Below are positions 39,544 through 58,371 of a stretch of DNA of 64,000 bases, in pieces (position 1 is the stretch's first letter; every line of letters starts with the position of its first letter). The translations under genes were made by a program, and so were the position numbers. This DNA is from Salinispira pacifica. GTDB taxonomy: Bacteria > Spirochaetota > Spirochaetia > DSM-27196 > Salinispiraceae. Under the pieces are notes generated by a model. The model did not search any database and was not told the DNA's origin. It saw only the letters and a list, made by a program, of their open reading frames with translations. Where the stretch lies: the NCBI RefSeq assembly GCF_000507245.1, contig NC_023035.1, positions 2,399,570-2,463,569 on the forward strand, read 5' to 3'.

Positions 39544-40503
39544 ATGAAAAGGTCATTCCCTTTTTTTGAAGTGATTGCAGTTGTTTTGATGATGACAGCT
39601 GTGTTTCCTGCGTCTGCGACACCGCTTTCTGCCGGTGACACAGAAACCTACACGGCCGGCGGTGTATCCTTCGTCATGTCCTACGTCCCCGGGGGTATGA
39701 CCTTTCCCACGGGTGTCAATGACGACGGAAGTGCAACTGTAGATAACGCATATTGGATAGGAGAGACCGAGGTGACTTACGAGCTTTGGGATACGGTATA
39801 CACTTGGGCGACAAGCAAGGCAAGAGGGGCGAAGATATATGGTTTTGCTAATGCTGGTCGCCAGGGCGGAGATTTAAAATCTGGTCCCATTGGGACGAAC
39901 CAGCACCCGGTGACCACGGTAAACTGGCGTGATGCCATGGTATGGTGCAACGCGCTTACGGAATGGTACAATGCGCAGAACGGAACAAGCTATGATCACG
40001 TCTACAGTTACGGGGGCTCGATAATAAGGGATTCCCGTGATGCCACTGCCTGCGAGGCAGCAGTTGAGAGCTCTACCGCGAAAGGCTTCCGCCTGCTGTC
40101 TAGAAATGAGTATGAACTTGCGGCGCGGTACCGTAACGGGACTGACTGGACCTACGGGGACCACGCAAGCGGAGACGAAAGTGGTGCATGTTTTGATGAC
40201 GGGAGTATCTTGGGAGATCTTGGTATGTCCACGGTAATCGGGGATTATGCTGTGTATCGCGGCAATTCCGGGTTATCTACTGCAGTGGTAAAAAGCAAAA
40301 CAGCCAATGCACTGGGCTTATACGATATGAGTGGCAATGTGGCGGAGTGGTGTTTTACTAAGAGCGGGTCTCGTCAACGCGGGCTTCTTGGCGGGAGTTG
40401 TGGCAGTTCTGCCGGCGGCCTGCAGGTTGGCGCCTGGTCCTACTACTACCCGGGCGAAGAGAGTCCCGGTAGCGGCTTCCGCATTGCGAGGACGGCCGAT
40501 TGA
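39544..40503 (+). CDS. Secreted FGE/SUMF1-domain protein with DGR-type variable C-terminus
   Basis: The 319-aa protein starts with a Sec signal peptide (cleavage likely after FPASA near residue 26). It then has a formylglycine-generating-enzyme (C-type lectin-like) fold: DNAYWIGETEVTYELWDTV, PVTTVNWRDAMVWCNALTEW, GFRLLSRNEYELAARY and LGLYDMSGNVAEWCF. The last 45 residues end GSGFRIARTAD and have the layout of DGR variable proteins such as TvpA. Codons at variable positions all end in C or T, as if derived from AAC/AAT. It probably does not modify sulfatases and instead binds ligands outside the cytoplasm. A TTAGGAGTAAAAA ribosome site precedes ATG. Confidence 0.8.
   Translation: MKRSFPFFEVIAVVLMMTAVFPASATPLSAGDTETYTAGGVSFVMSYVPGGMTFPTGVNDDGSATVDNAYWIGETEVTYELWDTVYTWATSKARGAKIYGFANAGRQGGDLKSGPIGTNQHPVTTVNWRDAMVWCNALTEWYNAQNGTSYDHVYSYGGSIIRDSRDATACEAAVESSTAKGFRLLSRNEYELAARYRNGTDWTYGDHASGDESGACFDDGSILGDLGMSTVIGDYAVYRGNSGLSTAVVKSKTANALGLYDMSGNVAEWCFTKSGSRQRGLLGGSCGSSAGGLQVGAWSYYYPGEESPGSGFRIARTAD
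40366..40493 (+). other. Candidate DGR variable region (VR)
   Basis: The translated segment runs GLLGGSCGSSAGGLQVGAW then SYYYPGEESPGSGFRIAR. Invariant positions (GGS, A, LQV, P, GFRIAR) interleave with variable ones. Seventeen variable codons, TGT GGC AGT TCT GGC GGC GGC GCC TCC TAC TAC TAC GGC AGT CCC GGT AGC, end in C or T, consistent with adenine-specific mutagenesis of AAY codons. The template repeat and DGR reverse transcriptase are not in the window. Confidence 0.65.
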
Positions 40504-40516
40504 TATATCAATCGGC
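40495..40516. other. Cruciform directly after the variable region
   Basis: A perfect inverted repeat with nine-bp arms GCCGATTGA/TCAATCGGC around TATA overlaps the stop codon of the FGE-fold gene. Several DGR target genes carry a short hairpin/cruciform of this size just downstream of the variable region that aids retrohoming. No T-run follows, so a simple terminator is less likely. Confidence 0.7.
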
Positions 40517-40597
40517 TTGACCTTTTGGGTTTTTACCTTTTGTCTTGGCATTCTTCTGCCCCTTTAGTCGATTTATTTTTTGAGCAGAAAAACGATT

Positions 40598-40655: not shown

Positions 40656-40750
40656 ATAACAGAGTTTACCAGGTTACGCCTGCGGCTCCACCCGAATTGC
40701 CTCTGGTCGCAGGCTCCCGACGGCAACTTCTGGTAAACTTGAAACGTTAT
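40656..40750. other. Compound inverted repeat resembling an attC site
   Basis: Nested arms are ATAAC/GTTAT (outer), AGTTTACCAG/CTGGTAAACT (10 bp) and GCCTGCG/CGCAGGC (inner). Unpaired spacers lie between them, AG on the left and TGAAAC on the right of the outer junction. The arrangement recalls integron attC sites (R box, spacer, L box, variable loop). However, GTTATAT fits the GTTRRRY core with only one mismatch, and no integron integrase is present. Confidence 0.35.
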
Positions 40751-41002: not shown

Positions 41003-41329
41003 ATGGTAAGGAAAAACAGCAGGTTTTCTGAGGAAGTAAGGGAGCGGGCAATCCGGATGGTATTCGCCGCCAAGGATGAATATGATTCGCAGTGGGCCGC
41101 TATAGAGTCGATAGCTGAAAAGATAGGCTGTACTGCAGAGACTCTGCGGCGTTGGGTGCGACAGGCTGAGAAAGATAATGGTAGTCGGGAAGGCATCACT
41201 ACCGGCGAAAAGAAAAGAATAGAAGATTTTGAGCGGGAAGTTCGAGAGCTCAAAAAAGCCAATGAAATATTACGCCTGGCTGCCGGATATTTCGCGAAGA
41301 CGGAGCTCGACCGCCCACACAAGAAATAG
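41003..41329 (+). CDS. IS3-family OrfA
   Basis: This 108-aa DNA-binding protein of an IS3-type element has a helix-turn-helix (AIESIAEKIGCTAETLRRWVRQ) followed by a leucine-zipper-like segment (FEREVRELKKANEILRLAAGYF). In such elements OrfB is made by a -1 frameshift near the end of OrfA. The orfB frame does overlap here, but orfB is broken, so no functional transposase is expected from this copy. Confidence 0.85.
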   Translation: MVRKNSRFSEEVRERAIRMVFAAKDEYDSQWAAIESIAEKIGCTAETLRRWVRQAEKDNGSREGITTGEKKRIEDFEREVRELKKANEILRLAAGYFAKTELDRPHKK

Positions 41330-41410
41330 TTGAGTTTATAGACACGCACCGGAATGTATATGGAGTCGAGCCGATCTGCAAAGTCTTACCGATTGCTTCA
41401 TGGTTATATT
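41304..41410 (+). pseudogene. IS3-family OrfB, 5' fragment
   Basis: In the -1 frame relative to orfA the sequence reads GARPPTQEIVEFIDTHRNVY then GVEPICKVLPIA, the N-terminus of IS3 OrfB. It stops at the boundary of the IS5-like insertion. Confidence 0.75.
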
Positions 41411-41467
41411 AGGGCCTCCTGAAAAAACCTTAACCCTATACATATAAATGAAATACTGCTAGAATTT

Positions 41468-43053
41468 GTGCATGAAGTGCACGGTTTTTGCGAAAACCAG
41501 GCAAAAACCCTTGCACCTGTTTTCTTGGCGGGAGGGATTGTGTATAGAACTGAGGACAAAACGCAGCTTTCATTTGAAGATTTCTATCTCCCATTTGGAG
41601 GCAAACTGAACCCCAATAACCGCTGGGTACAGCTTGCTGATTTAATTCCCTGGGAAGATTTAGAAGCAGAATACGCCTCACAGTTTGCTATCGAAAGCGG
41701 GCAAGGCGCTCCGGCAATACAGTTTCGGACAGCTCTGGGTGCCCTGATTATAAAGGAAAAATTAGGAATTACAGATGAGGAAACCGTGGAGCAGATTCGT
41801 GAGACGCCTTACCTGCAATATCTCATCGGAATGCAGGGGTACCAGGATGAGGCTCCTTTTGATCCATCCATGCCTGGTCACTCGCTACGCTCGTTGCCCG
41901 GCCGTGCATCCGGGATGGTGCATTTCAGAAAGCGAATCAGCATGGACATGATCACTCACGCAAATGAATTGATTATTGCCGAAGAACGTAAAAAAAAACT
42001 GAAGATGATACGGAAGCTGAAAAAGAAGAAAATTCTGAGGTAGAAAACAGCGGAAAGCTTCTGATTGATGCTACCTGTGTGCCCGGTGATATTCGCTATC
42101 CCACCGATCTTTCGCTTTTAAATGAGAGCCGGGAAAAACTGGAAACCATCATAGACGTTATTCACGCAGAACGGCCCAAGGGCGCGACAAAACCCCGAAC
42201 ATACCGGCAAAGGGCGCGAAAGGATTTTTTGGCTGTCATCAAAAAGCGCAAAGCGAGCAAGAACAAGATTCGCAAGGCAATACGCAAGCAGCTGGGGTAC
42301 ATACGCCGTAATCTCCGGCACATAGAGCAATTAGCAGCAGGTGTCAGTTTGAAAATCCTGTCACGGAAACAGTACCGGAATCTGCTGGTGATCTCAGAAG
42401 TCTTTCGCCAGCAGGCCCTGATGTATGAAAACAAAGATCATCGAATGTCAGGCCGGATCGTGAGCATATCCCAACCCCATATTCGCCCCATAGTCAGGGG
42501 AAAAGCCGGTACCCCGGTTGAGTTCGGCATGAAGATTTCATCCGCCAATATTAACGGGTACATGTTTATCGACCGATTTTCATGGGATCCATACAACGAG
42601 TCTGGTGATTTAGACATGCAGGCTGAAAATTACAAACAGAGATATGGCGTGTATCCGGAATCAATACACGCCGATCAGATTTACCGCACCAGGGACAACC
42701 GAAATTGGTGCAAGAAACGGGGAATCAGATTATCTGGTCCACCACTGGGTCGTCCACCGAAAGATCGTGGAGAAAATCGGGAACGAAAGAAGCTGGCCCG
42801 TCAGGATGAGCTGGATAGAATCGCCGTTGAAGGGACATTCGGTAGAGCAAAACGACGGTACTCAATGGGTCGATTAATGACAAAGCTTTCTGAGACCAGT
42901 GAATCGCAGGTGGCCATGATCATGCTGGTGATGAACCTGGAAAAGATTCGCATGGATCTTTTTTACGTCTTTATCATAGCTATGCTACGCAGCCGAAAAA
43001 TTCCGAAGTCTCATTTCCCCGTGGTATTGGGGTATGGTAATATGGCAGCATAG
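41468..43053 (+). CDS. IS5-like transposase requiring a -1 frameshift at A9
   Basis: The first frame (41,468-42,043, GTG start) gives FEDFYLPFGGKLNPNNRWV to MVHFRKRISMDM. It then runs into CGT followed by nine A and ends 14 codons later. Slipping back one base on the A-run joins the second frame, which continues TEDDTEAEKEENSEVENSGK, LLIDATCVPGDIRYPTDL and then the C-terminal catalytic region (NINGYMFIDR, HADQIYRTRDN, GTFGRAKRRYSMGR). The joined protein is about 530 aa. A 42-bp hairpin element is inserted in frame between FDPS and MVHF. Activity is uncertain. Confidence 0.75.
41873..41914. repeat. Hairpin element, GACCAG family, inside IS5-like transposase
   Basis: The 42-bp insert starts CCTGGTC and ends GCCCGGCCGTGCATCCGGG, matching the element in IS66 tnpC at both ends with a different interior (ACTCGCTACGCTCGTT). 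It adds 14 residues to the transposase without shifting the frame. Its interior pairs less well than the other family members. Confidence 0.6.
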
Positions 43054-43073
43054 GGTTTTTTTCAGGAGGCCCT

Positions 43074-44398
43074 ATTTAGAGGACATCAGAGATGATCTTT
43101 TGTCAGGAGAATACCAGCCTCTCCCAGCAAAGCGCGTATATATTCCAAAACCAAACGGCAAGTTACGACCTTTGGGAATACCTACACTAAGAGATCGAAT
43201 TGTACAGCGAGCAATGCTGATGGCGATGGAGCCGATATGGGAAAGTGACTTTCACAGACTATCCTACGGCTTCAGACCTGAACGAAGTGTACATCATGCA
43301 ATTCGAACAGTAAAGTTTCAGCTTCAGGATGGAGTTGAAACGGTTGGAAGGTGGATCATCGAAGGCGATCTATCAAGCTATTTTGATACGGTTCATCACA
43401 GACTTCTTATGAAATGCGTGCGCAGGAGGATCAAGGATAAGCGCTTTACCGCACTGCTGTGGCGGTTTCTCAAGGCTGGGCATATCGACAAAGATCTCTT
43501 CAAGGCTGCGAGCGAAGGAGTTCCTCAGGGTGGAGTACTCTCTCCACTACTGTCCAATATCATGCTAAATGAGTTCGACTGGTGGCTGGATCAGCTTTAT
43601 CTGAGCAAGAAAGCACGGAAAGGCCGCTGGTATTGGAATAACACAATCAAGATTCAACGCCCAATCGCAGTGCGGGAAGGCCGAGAATGGCTGCCGGCAG
43701 TCACCTATTGCCGGTATGCTGATGACTTTGTGATACAAGTAAAGGGCAATCGACAGCATGCAGAATTGATTAGGGAGCAAGCACGCTCATTTCTTGAAGA
43801 TACGCTACATCTGACCTTGAACATGGAGAAGACCCATATTACCCATGTGGATGACGGCTTTGTGTTTCTTGGTCATAGAATTATCCGCAAGCGAGGCCCG
43901 CGAGGCATCAAACGTCCAGTCACAACAATTCCGCACCAGAAAGCGAAAGCATTTGCCCGCTCAATAGCACAGGAACTGTCGGGAAATTATAGCGAGAATA
44001 AAATCGCTATGGTGGAACGATTGAACCGGAAACTTGCAGGCTGGGCGAATTTCTATCAGTTTACTGATTATACATCGTACGTCTATCGCCGAATTGATAG
44101 AGTTGTATTTTGGAAGCTGGCACATTGGCTGGCGCGGAAGTATCGGACATCAATCAAGAGTCTTGCAAGGCGAGGAATACGGAGTCCTGCACCGGGTAAA
44201 GCCAAAACATGGATTCTCTATGGAGCAAATCCAAATGGCAAAATCCAGGGCATAGACCTTCGTCGGCTGGTTACCAGTCCGAAGAAGCAATTCCGCTGGA
44301 GAAATCCTGAAGTTAATCCATACCTGCCACGAGAAGAAGAACGAAATACTGTGAGCTCAACGTATGATCAAGTTGCGAGGGCTATTAGCCCGATCTAA
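43074..44398 (+). CDS. ltrA: Group II intron reverse transcriptase/maturase, 5' truncated
   Basis: The frame has RT motifs VYIPKPNGKLRPLGIPTLRD, the GDLSSYFDTVHH block, SEGVPQGGVLSPLLSN and the catalytic CRYADDFVIQ, followed by the maturase (X) domain with RLNRKLAGWANFYQFTDY. There is no HNH endonuclease. The N-terminus (roughly 50-60 residues) is missing because the IS5-like element abuts at 43,073. The upstream ATG in the fused frame belongs to that element. The intron's domains V-VI follow at once. Without a 5' end the intron cannot be mobile on its own. Confidence 0.88.
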
Positions 44399-44403
44399 AT
44401 GGA

Positions 44404-44488
44404 AAGCCGGATGCGCTGAAAGGTGCACGTCCGGTTTGGGGAGGAGAGGCAGGGAGATAGTTCGACTACGCCCTGTCTCTTACTCTAC
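44404..44488 (+). ncRNA. Group II intron domains V and VI
   Basis: Domain V is recognisable: AGCCGGATGCGCTGAAAGG then TGCACGTCCGGTTT, a stem with the AGC triad replaced in the usual bulge layout. Domain VI follows as GAGAGGCAGGG paired with CCCTGTCTCTT. The intron ends ..CTCTAC at 44,488, after which the IS3 orfB frame resumes (LRLPGGMVYLVAI). Confidence 0.8.
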
Positions 44489-44958
44489 TCAGATTACCCG
44501 GAGGGATGGTGTATTTGGTAGCGATTATTGACCTGTATTCCCGGAAAGTTTTGAGTTGGAGACTGAGCAACAGCATGAAGGTTGATTTCTGCAATGAGGC
44601 TTTGCTCGAAGCTCTGGAAAAATATGGCGTTCCAGCGATCTTTAACACAGATCAGGGTAGCCAGTTTACATCGGATTCATTTATACAGATCCTCAAGGAT
44701 CATCAAATTGAAATCAGCATGGACGGCAAAGGTCGTGCACTGGATAATATTTATATTGAACGGCTTTGGAGGACATTAAAGTACGAAGACATTTACATCA
44801 AAGGTTATGAAAGCATGACCGCTCTGCGAGACGGGTTACACCGCTATTTCCACTTCTACAATACCAAGCGATACCACCAGTCTTTGGACTATCAGGTTCC
44901 TGATGAAAAGTATGAATCATTTCAGATTCCGGATCAGGAATGGAGATCAGCAGCCTAA
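44489..44958 (+). pseudogene. IS3-family OrfB, 3' fragment
   Basis: The frame reads RLPGGMVYLVAIIDLYSRKV, NTDQGSQFTSDSF and SMDGKGRALDNIYIERLWR, the C-terminal part of a DDE integrase with the second Asp and the Glu. The first catalytic Asp region lies in the lost middle portion. It could be translated from the internal ATG at 44,506, but would be inactive. Confidence 0.8.
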
Positions 44959-45969: not shown

Positions 45970-46572
45970 ATGACCAACGAAACCAGAAACAGGATTCTAC
46001 AAGTCTTTGAAAAGCAGTCAGGCTACGCAAGAACTCAAGACATAAAATCCGAAGGCCTTCATCATAAGTACCTCCAGGAGCTCGTAGATGATGGCACTAT
46101 ACTAAAAATCAAACACGGCCTTTACAGCCTCACTGAACTCGATGATGCTGCGACTCTCCATGAAGCACTTCTTACCGTTCCGGATGGAATTATCTGTATG
46201 GGTACAGCTCTGGCCTACTACGAGTTGACAACCTGGAATCCGCCTGAAATACATATTGCCCTGCTCCGGGGAAGAAAGATTCTACTTCCAGATTATCCTC
46301 CTATCCAGCTATACCATGTATCTGAGGATATTTTCACCCTTGGTCAAACAGAGATTAAAACAGACTCCGGGCATTATATACCAATATACAACAGGGAGAG
46401 AGCCGTGTGCGATGCTATAAGGTTCAGAAACAAGATCGGCATCGACATCATGAAGGAAGTCCTTGGAGGATATATACAGAGTGATCATCGCGATCTCAAT
46501 ACTCTAAACCGTTATGCCCGGAAACTAAGGATTGAAACTGTCCTCAACCAATACCTGGATGTTCTCCTATGA
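45970..46572 (+). CDS. abiEi: AbiEi-family antitoxin / autorepressor
   Basis: The 200-aa protein has an N-terminal winged-helix (VFEKQSGYARTQDIKSEGLH, then HKYLQELVDDGTILKIKHGLY) as in AbiEi antitoxins of type IV toxin-antitoxin phage-abortive systems. The C-terminal domain (TVPDGIICMGTALAYYELT, then NRERAVCDAIRF) is also typical. No Shine-Dalgarno sequence is present and the -10 box is only eight bases upstream, so the message is probably leaderless. It overlaps abiEii by four bases. Confidence 0.88.
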   Translation: MTNETRNRILQVFEKQSGYARTQDIKSEGLHHKYLQELVDDGTILKIKHGLYSLTELDDAATLHEALLTVPDGIICMGTALAYYELTTWNPPEIHIALLRGRKILLPDYPPIQLYHVSEDIFTLGQTEIKTDSGHYIPIYNRERAVCDAIRFRNKIGIDIMKEVLGGYIQSDHRDLNTLNRYARKLRIETVLNQYLDVLL

Positions 46573-47318
46573 ACAATATCACTGACTCTGTAAAGGCTCG
46601 CCTTCGCAACCTCGCCCGGAAAGAAAAGAAAGATTATGTGTTGATCACGCGATTGTACATGCAAGAGGGTATTCTCCGCAGGATAGGAAAATCAAAGTAC
46701 TCCGAATCATTTTGTCTGAAAGGTGGTCTGCTTCTCTATTCTATCTCCGGCTTTACAAGCAGACCGACAATGGATCTTGATCTGCTGGGCATAAACATAC
46801 CAAGCGGAGAAGACAAATTCCGCTCCATCCTGACCGAAATCCTCTCTATAGAAGCAGCAGATGGCCTTGTATTTGATACCGATTCCTTGAAGCTCCAGGA
46901 AATAATCGAAGGAGCAGACTACCATGGGCAGCAGTTAAAGGTACTCTGCAGGCTCGGATCGATCAGAACAAACCTGAAACTCGACATCGGATTTGGTGAC
47001 ACAATCTATCCTGGACCGGTACAAATGGAGTATCCGGCTCTACTGGAAACAGATCCGATAAAAATATCTGCCTACTCTCTGGAATCGGTGATTGCCGAGA
47101 AGTTTGATGCCATGATTGTTCTTGATGCCCGCAACAGCAGGATGAAAGACTTTTATGACATCTATGATATCCTGACAAACCACAGGATTGACCAGGCTAT
47201 CTTGGAAGAGGCGATCCGGCTAACCATCAACACAAGACGAACTATCCTCCCGGAAGCGCCTGCAATCTTCCAGGATGCTTTCAGCTCAGATCCCAGAAAC
47301 CAGCAGCTCTGGAACTGA
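46569..47318 (+). CDS. abiEii: AbiEii nucleotidyltransferase toxin, truncated by in-frame TGA
   Basis: Nucleotidyltransferase motifs are CLKGGLLLYSISG followed by RPTMDLDLLG (the G..DxD core), LKLDIGFGD, the lysine in SVIAEKFDAMI and RMKDFYDIYDI. The frame stops at TGA (47,316). The same frame continues for 32 codons as FLKRIKAEEIGFATVVNKIT to YPIYINLK and a natural TAA at 47,414, which looks like the normal AbiEii C-terminus. The toxin is therefore shortened by a nonsense mutation, although all visible catalytic motifs remain. Confidence 0.85.
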   Translation: MNNITDSVKARLRNLARKEKKDYVLITRLYMQEGILRRIGKSKYSESFCLKGGLLLYSISGFTSRPTMDLDLLGINIPSGEDKFRSILTEILSIEAADGLVFDTDSLKLQEIIEGADYHGQQLKVLCRLGSIRTNLKLDIGFGDTIYPGPVQMEYPALLETDPIKISAYSLESVIAEKFDAMIVLDARNSRMKDFYDIYDILTNHRIDQAILEEAIRLTINTRRTILPEAPAIFQDAFSSDPRNQQLWN

Positions 47319-48786: not shown

Positions 48787-48963
48787 ATGATCGCTAATCG
48801 GTTTGTACCGCAACTGCAAAGCAGCGAGGAACAATCCCGACAGAGCGAAACAGCCGTGTACCGCAGTCCATAAGGACGAGGAACATGGCGAGTAGCAGGT
48901 CGCAACGCGACCGACCAGGCACGGATGCATGGCCGAGCAGGTCGCAACGCGACCGACCAGGCC
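48787..48963. repeat. Four hairpin elements between higB and higA
   Basis: Copies C (TACCGCA-CTGC-AAA-GCAG-GAGGAA) and D (outer GCCGTG/CATGGC, inner GTCC/GGAC) of the GAGGAA family are followed by two copies of the GACCAG family (GGTCGC-AAC-GCGACC). They fill the space between the toxin and antitoxin genes, which is normally a few to a few tens of bases. Confidence 0.7.
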
Positions 48964-57755: not shown

Positions 57756-57973
57756 CCCCAGACATCCAGTTCCGATTCAGGAAGTTCATCGAAAAAGCTG
57801 TCGGGGATTTCCATAGGGTAGCGTCCAGCAGTTCTCGCCGCCTGCGTATCCAGCGGCATGAGGCGCGCATACGGTTTTCCTGCTTTAGCGATGATCACAA
57901 CTTCACCATTATGAGCCTTTTCAAGAATTGCCGAGAAATGAGTCTTCGCCTGGTGGACGTTTATCTTTTCCAT
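57752..57973 (-). CDS. Phd/YefM-family antitoxin
   Basis: The 73-aa protein MEKINVHQAKTHFSAILEKA has the Phd N-terminal DNA-binding fold, with AGKPYARLMPLD at the end of that domain. A short C-terminal toxin-binding tail follows. It represses its promoter and neutralises the PIN toxin. The 43-bp hairpin array begins 47 bp upstream of its start. Confidence 0.9.
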   Translation of the reverse strand: MEKINVHQAKTHFSAILEKAHNGEVVIIAKAGKPYARLMPLDTQAARTAGRYPMEIPDSFFDELPESELDVWG

Positions 57974-58019
57974 ATAGTTAAATTAGTCCACCACATGGAC
58001 TAAGTCAAGCATCCGGACG

Positions 58020-58319
58020 CATGGGCAAGCAGGTCGCAGCGCGACCGACCAGCCCCCGGTTGCATGGGCGAGCAGGTCGCAGCGCGACCGACCAGCCCCC
58101 GGTTGCATGGGCGAGCAGGTCGCAGCGCGACCGACCAGCCCCCGGTTGCATGGGCGAGCAGGTCGCAGCGCGACCGACCAGCCCCCGGACGCATGGGCGA
58201 GCAGGTCGCAGCGCGACCGACCAGCCCCCGGACGCATGGGCGAGCAGGTCGCAGCGCGACCGACCAGCCCCCGGTTGCATGGGCGAGCAGGCACGGAGTG
58301 CCGACCAGCCCCCCGGACG
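58020..58319. repeat. 43-bp tandem array, seven units, GACCAG hairpin family
   Basis: Each unit reads CATGGGCGAGCAG, then a hairpin GTCGC-AGC-GCGAC, then CGACCAGCCCCCGG and TTG or ACG. Units begin at about 58,020, 58,063, 58,106, 58,149, 58,192, 58,235 and 58,278. Unit 7 replaces the inner stem with GGCAC-GGA-GTGCC, which still pairs. The repeats are contiguous with no spacers, so this is not CRISPR. Open frames reading through the array are artefacts of its period. Confidence 0.9.
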
Positions 58320-58323
58320 CATG

Positions 58324-58371
58324 GTATCGGGATCGTTCCTCAGCGCTTTGCGCTTGCGGTACGACCCTTGG
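58324..58371 (-). repeat. Hairpin element, GAGGAA family (copy E)
   Basis: On the minus strand the outer arms are GGGTCG/CGATCCC with one bulge. The loop strands are TACCGCA and GAGGAA, and the inner hairpin AGCGC-AAA-GCGCT. It directly abuts the 43-bp array. The remaining 100 bp to the next gene hold nothing recognisable. Confidence 0.7.

Follow-up and report, generated by a model that had tools for sequence, protein, structure and literature searches.

A probable orphan target of a diversity-generating retroelement in the spirochaete Salinispira pacifica

We conclude that a gene of Salinispira pacifica is, by descent, the target of a diversity-generating retroelement (DGR), and that it is an orphan. 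With high confidence, a segment close to its 3' end is the variable region (VR) of a TvpA/FGE-type target gene now separated from its DGR. The gene lies in a stretch of 64,000 nucleotides, here called the window, that spans bases 2,399,570 to 2,463,569 of a genome assembled as one contig (3,782,798 bases, 99.8% complete). The main features, in window coordinates, are:

39544-40503, plus strand: FGE-sulfatase protein gene, encoding 319 amino acids (open reading frame; PF03781, 6.6e-25)
40390-40485, plus strand: VR core of 32 codons, set by gap-free alignment to foreign template repeats (TRs)
40474-40493, plus strand: constant 3' end of the VR (GGCTTCCGCATTGCGAGGAC), placed by comparison with L064, a complete spirochaete DGR
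40495-40516, no strand assigned: perfect 22-bp palindrome over the TGA stop codon, a possible homing cruciform
40521-40542, plus strand: T-rich motif CCTTTTGGGTTTTTACCTTTTG after the stop codon, which recurs, in varied form, after the stop codons of several related targets including L064

The variable region and foreign template repeats

The gene at 39544-40503 is the only one in the genome with a PF03781 domain. The 319-residue protein matches the sequence of PDB entry 2y3c (1.8e-15), Treponema denticola variable protein 1 (TvpA), a DGR variable protein. We modelled the product from nine homologues (pLDDT 65, pTM 0.73; most of the last 45 residues were weak). The best structural match of the model was again 2y3c (E 1.6e-13), with CarF, PvdO and formylglycine-generating enzymes ranked lower. 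Together, the PF03781 domain and the 2y3c fold match indicate a C-type-lectin (FGE) fold bearing the variable positions, the VR part of the model being of low confidence. Residues 1-26 are hydrophobic and look like the start of a signal peptide, so export is predicted. The C-terminus contains the constant blocks GGS, LQV and GFRIAR, as the original prediction described. Note that an FGE tail usually has the form GGS...GFR.

The named relatives were drawn from a single search across 84,980 species genomes. L064 is located in the same genome as one of these relatives, L050 (a Spirochaetales MAG), but on a different contig. It comprises an FGE target, a TR, an HRDC-domain gene, Avd (PF22296, 1.9e-18) and a reverse transcriptase (RT) with IGNLTSQ and YMDD motifs. 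The TR starts within about 90 bases of the target stop codon. The VR core of L064 departs from its own TR at TR adenines only, and the two diverge at the 3' end. Two further TRs were found. One, in genome G119 (L100), adjoins an FGE target; the other, in G122 (L101), accompanies an FGE target, HRDC, Avd and RT. PF22296 was detected in G053 and G122. The related target gene L043 is 61% identical to the window gene outside the VR.

Target codons 283-314 align without gaps to the three spirochaete TRs from L064, G119 and G122. At TR adenines, mismatches occur at 23/32, 24/34 and 26/37 positions (70-72%). At other TR bases, the equivalent counts are 17/64, 13/62 and 15/59 (21-27%). Hence, the differences are strongly biased to adenines (Fisher p 3e-5, 3e-6 and 2e-5 for the three foreign TRs). 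The bias is also directional. A TR adenine faces another base in the VR in 23-26 cases, and the opposite occurs in 1-3. The 3'-terminal homology to a TR, differing mainly at adenines, is thus seen against three foreign TRs, the genome itself having no TR for comparison. Between 13 and 17 non-adenine differences remain. Since no TR of the same lineage is known, they are left to be attributed to TRs having diverged from one another. The codon-for-codon alignment, with changes concentrated at template adenines, bears out the suggestion of a TvpA/FGE-type DGR variable region at the C-terminus. By analogy, its constant 3' end (40474-40493) occupies the place of a homing-initiation (IMH) site and may have played that role.

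The original prediction drew on third bases, stating that each of the 17 variable codons has C or T as its last base. This depends on the codons counted. At 13 columns, both the L064 and G119 TRs have AAC or AAT. The window codons at these columns are GGC, AGT, GGC, GGC, GCC, TCC, TAC, TAC, TAC, GAA, AGT, CCC and GGT. The statement therefore holds for 12 of the 13 template AAC/AAT columns and fails for GAA, a codon that adenine mutagenesis cannot reach from AAC or AAT. In the upstream part of the gene, 55.7% of third bases are C or T, giving p = 0.006 for at least 12 in 13. The match to the TRs is much stronger evidence than this surplus.

Because adenine-rich TRs by themselves favour a bias in such counts, we added two controls. 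The first used the tails of ordinary FGE proteins, read with identical spacing. For these, identity to the TRs at non-adenine bases was at best 0.54-0.66, and 7-10 of 13 third bases were C or T. The window VR, with values of 0.73-0.79 and 12 of 13, resembles verified VRs. The second control was template-free. We compared the window gene, in stretches of 30 codons, with five related target genes and two ordinary FGE genes. In 5/5 related targets, the stretch where third-base identity most exceeded amino-acid identity overlapped the VR; here, amino acids were 33-40% and third bases 63-70% identical. Such a pattern, in which the protein changes more and third bases less, is expected from copying related templates with AAC codons. 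For the two ordinary FGE genes, the stretch fell elsewhere and the excess was almost nil. Note that p values per pair were modest (0.02-0.14) and that the pairs are not independent, because the window sequence is common to all.

There were also observations on the relatives themselves. In genome G119, no RT lies beside the TR and FGE target of L100 (contig C43). On contig C53 of the same genome, a different RT and an Avd-like gene adjoin an Lcl_C (DUF1566-type) protein (L103); this RT may serve L100 from afar. Two distant DGRs share a segment after the TR, found at 2195-2270 of L064 and on the reverse strand of L100 (ACTGGCGCGC ... GCGCAAGTCCAGATACC). The TR and this segment together are 78% identical between L064 and L100, and the segment may adopt a structure within the template RNA. 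Finally, L037 1041 (genome G040), from the window's order, has the FGE tail GGSWYNSASGCTVALRGSDGPDSRYDSRGFRV. With C or T at 13/13 third bases of the template-asparagine columns, it resembles a further variable region of DGR type.

The palindrome at the stop codon

A nine-bp inverted repeat with a four-base loop had been described over the stop codon. It is real (GCCGATTGA-TATA-TCAATCGGC) and is in fact a 22-bp palindrome. No other perfect palindrome in the 64-kb window is as long, and no other 9-bp stem there has a 4-base loop. Folded as single-stranded DNA, it gave a z score of -4.3.

By analogy with known systems, a homing role for the palindrome is plausible. Homing hairpins after phage VRs have G+C-rich stems of 7-10 bp and 4-base GRNA loops (Guo et al. 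2011, PMC3240598). The palindrome has a stem and loop length within this range and is in the right place. Specifically, it follows directly on the constant VR end, at the position where the complete DGR L064 has a smaller hairpin with a 6-bp stem. The alternative, that it terminates transcription or belongs to the end of a mobile element rather than being a DGR homing element, falls only a little short of an even chance. The loop is TATA, which does not fit the GRNA consensus, and just 5/9 of the stem is G+C (PMC3240598). Furthermore, the related targets L043, L045 and L100 have no hairpin at the stop codon, and some related targets have terminator-like hairpins 40-60 bases further downstream. 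Conversely, no T-run directly follows the palindrome and the genome has no other copy of it. For the latter reason, we rejected the idea that it is the repeated end of a mobile element.

Search for the diversifying machinery

The original prediction held that neither a template nor a DGR-type RT is in the window. This was correct. The window does hold an RT at 43034-44398, but this is the maturase of a group II intron. We rejected it as a candidate diversifier because it has a maturase domain and adjoins intron RNA. Otherwise, searches of the window for remnants of Avd, HRDC and DGR-RT gave chance matches. In the stretch that corresponds to the 2.1 kb cassette downstream of the L064 target, there was no trace of TR, HRDC, Avd or RT.

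The gene had also been proposed to be a remote target, its DGR lying at some other place in the genome. This did not hold for the complete, single-contig genome. A blastn search of the genome found no second copy of the VR. Nor was there an adenine-tolerant TR match in the genome, using a degenerate pattern in which every non-adenine may be adenine and 3 mismatches are allowed. With the G119 TR as blastn query, nothing in this genome rose above chance except the VR itself, at 0.42; as a positive control, the same TR found relatives in other genomes with E values down to 4e-37. Avd (PF22296) was found neither in this genome nor in the same-family genomes examined. The genome contains no DGR-type RT. 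Every RT match looked like the maturase of a group II intron, one copy being split by a transposon. On the same RT model, the RT of Bordetella phage BPP-1 scored 61.6 bits, and a DGR RT in the genome would therefore have been detected. In viral contigs, we found no target, RT or TR of this type. We conclude that the target gene belongs to no functional DGR in this genome. The original prediction was to be abandoned if template and RT were absent and isolates showed either no variation or differences over all bases. Template and RT are indeed absent, but comparison with foreign templates shows an adenine bias in the differences.

The gene is in a mobile setting. It lies 1.7 kb downstream of an integrase, which itself comes after a tRNA-Arg gene. 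On the 3' side, insertion sequences and a group II intron begin at 41,003. The insertion sequences are stacked across 41003-44958, one with an ALIL pseudoknot, and the intron RT and RNA occupy 43034-44488. Another group II intron is present in about nine near-identical copies in the genome. An imperfect inverted repeat, identified by eye at 40664-40738 (start GTTTACCAG, end CTGGTAAAC), lies after the target gene and before these insertion sequences; it is possibly a small mobile element or attC-like site. Further downstream are an AbiEi/AbiEii toxin-antitoxin type abortive-infection pair (45970-47318, plus strand) and a Type I Wadjet (JetABCD) anti-plasmid system (50482-57099, minus strand). 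In the latter, JetC is one frame of 1122 codons with its two halves split by a single in-frame TAG. A 43-bp unit (AGCAGGTCGCAGCGCGACCGACCAGCC...) forms a tandem array at 57965-58351, and related 27-bp copies are at 48894-48962.

Origin of the gene and comparison with known systems

The following sequence of events would account for the gene. In an ancestor or donor, an Avd-assisted RT would have copied a TR rich in AAC/AAT codons, randomising adenines. The mutated cDNA would then have replaced the 3' end of the target gene, preserving scaffold codons and altering about 13-15 positions of the C-type-lectin-fold binding surface. The palindrome may have formed part of the homing site. During turnover of the island, the DGR core was presumably lost, or the target arrived alone. 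Either route, core loss by insertion and deletion or solo arrival, would fit the surroundings. The target gene is now probably frozen, and we infer that its present function is that of an exported binder with one fixed specificity.

A broader form of solo arrival is that pre-diversified DGR targets travel alone. On this view, a lone mobile gene, carried in an island that also has defence genes, would have entered the lineage, and orphan binders of this sort would be spreading among spirochaetes unaccompanied by their diversifier. We consider this unlikely. The locus L047, from a genome (G050, apparently the same as G504) that is 94% complete, has an FGE gene of VR type, while neither a DGR RT nor Avd could be detected there. 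It is a possible second case of an orphan target travelling without a DGR.

Very improbable is an active remote target, with the VR still diversified in trans by a DGR on a plasmid or prophage that had gone by the time of sequencing, or by one in other strains of the species. T. denticola is known to have remote targets (PMC4891356). The intact reading frame, a VR like that of active systems and the stop-codon hairpin shared with L064 would also agree. However, S. pacifica L21-RPul-D2 has a single, complete circular chromosome, and the text of the paper describing it does not mention a plasmid (PMC4511686). In addition, the genome lacks RT, Avd and TR, and viral contigs lack a TR of this type. 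About as improbable is that no DGR ever touched the gene, its C-terminus being that of any FGE domain and its excess of C/T-ending codons due to chance: GGS...GFR is the usual tail and the gene often has C or T as third base (56%), but real TRs are matched codon for codon with adenine bias, ordinary FGE tails match TRs far less well, and the inverted third-base/amino-acid pattern is restricted to the VR segment.

The orphan reading has consequences for detection. Alignment to the templates of distant relatives can reveal a DGR target even where the genome is finished and has no DGR. Surveys centred on the RT miss such genes; Roux et al. 2021 (PMC8144416) state that targets distant from the RT would escape their approach. 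If orphan targets are common, the output of DGRs outlives the machine as fixed binding proteins, and which specificities are kept becomes a question.

Of the known systems, the Bordetella phage BPP-1 DGR (mtd) shares adenine-specific mutagenic homing and a hairpin/cruciform by the stop codon, right after the VR. Unlike the window gene, it has a phage tail protein as target, an active cassette, a G+C-rich stem and a GRNA-type loop. L064 is closer, sharing the FGE target, VR architecture, C-terminus RTA(N)D, stop-codon hairpin and the T-rich motif after it. It differs in that TR, HRDC, Avd and RT all follow the target within 2.1 kb, and 35% of amino acids are identical outside the VR. The nearest parallel is T. 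denticola, which has FGE-type DGR targets, remote targets and, in isolates without RT and TR, leftover targets (Nimkulrat et al. 2016, PMC4891356). TvpA and the other T. denticola targets resemble the window gene in encoding exported proteins of FGE/C-type-lectin fold, in having a VR with mutated AAC/AAT codons at the 3' end, and in surviving without RT and TR. Here, by comparison, the spirochaete family is another one, the genome has one target, a 22-bp palindrome lies at the stop codon, and no S. pacifica strain is known to carry a DGR core. Hence, the window gene is a leftover target like those of T. denticola, of a kind already known, in another spirochaete.
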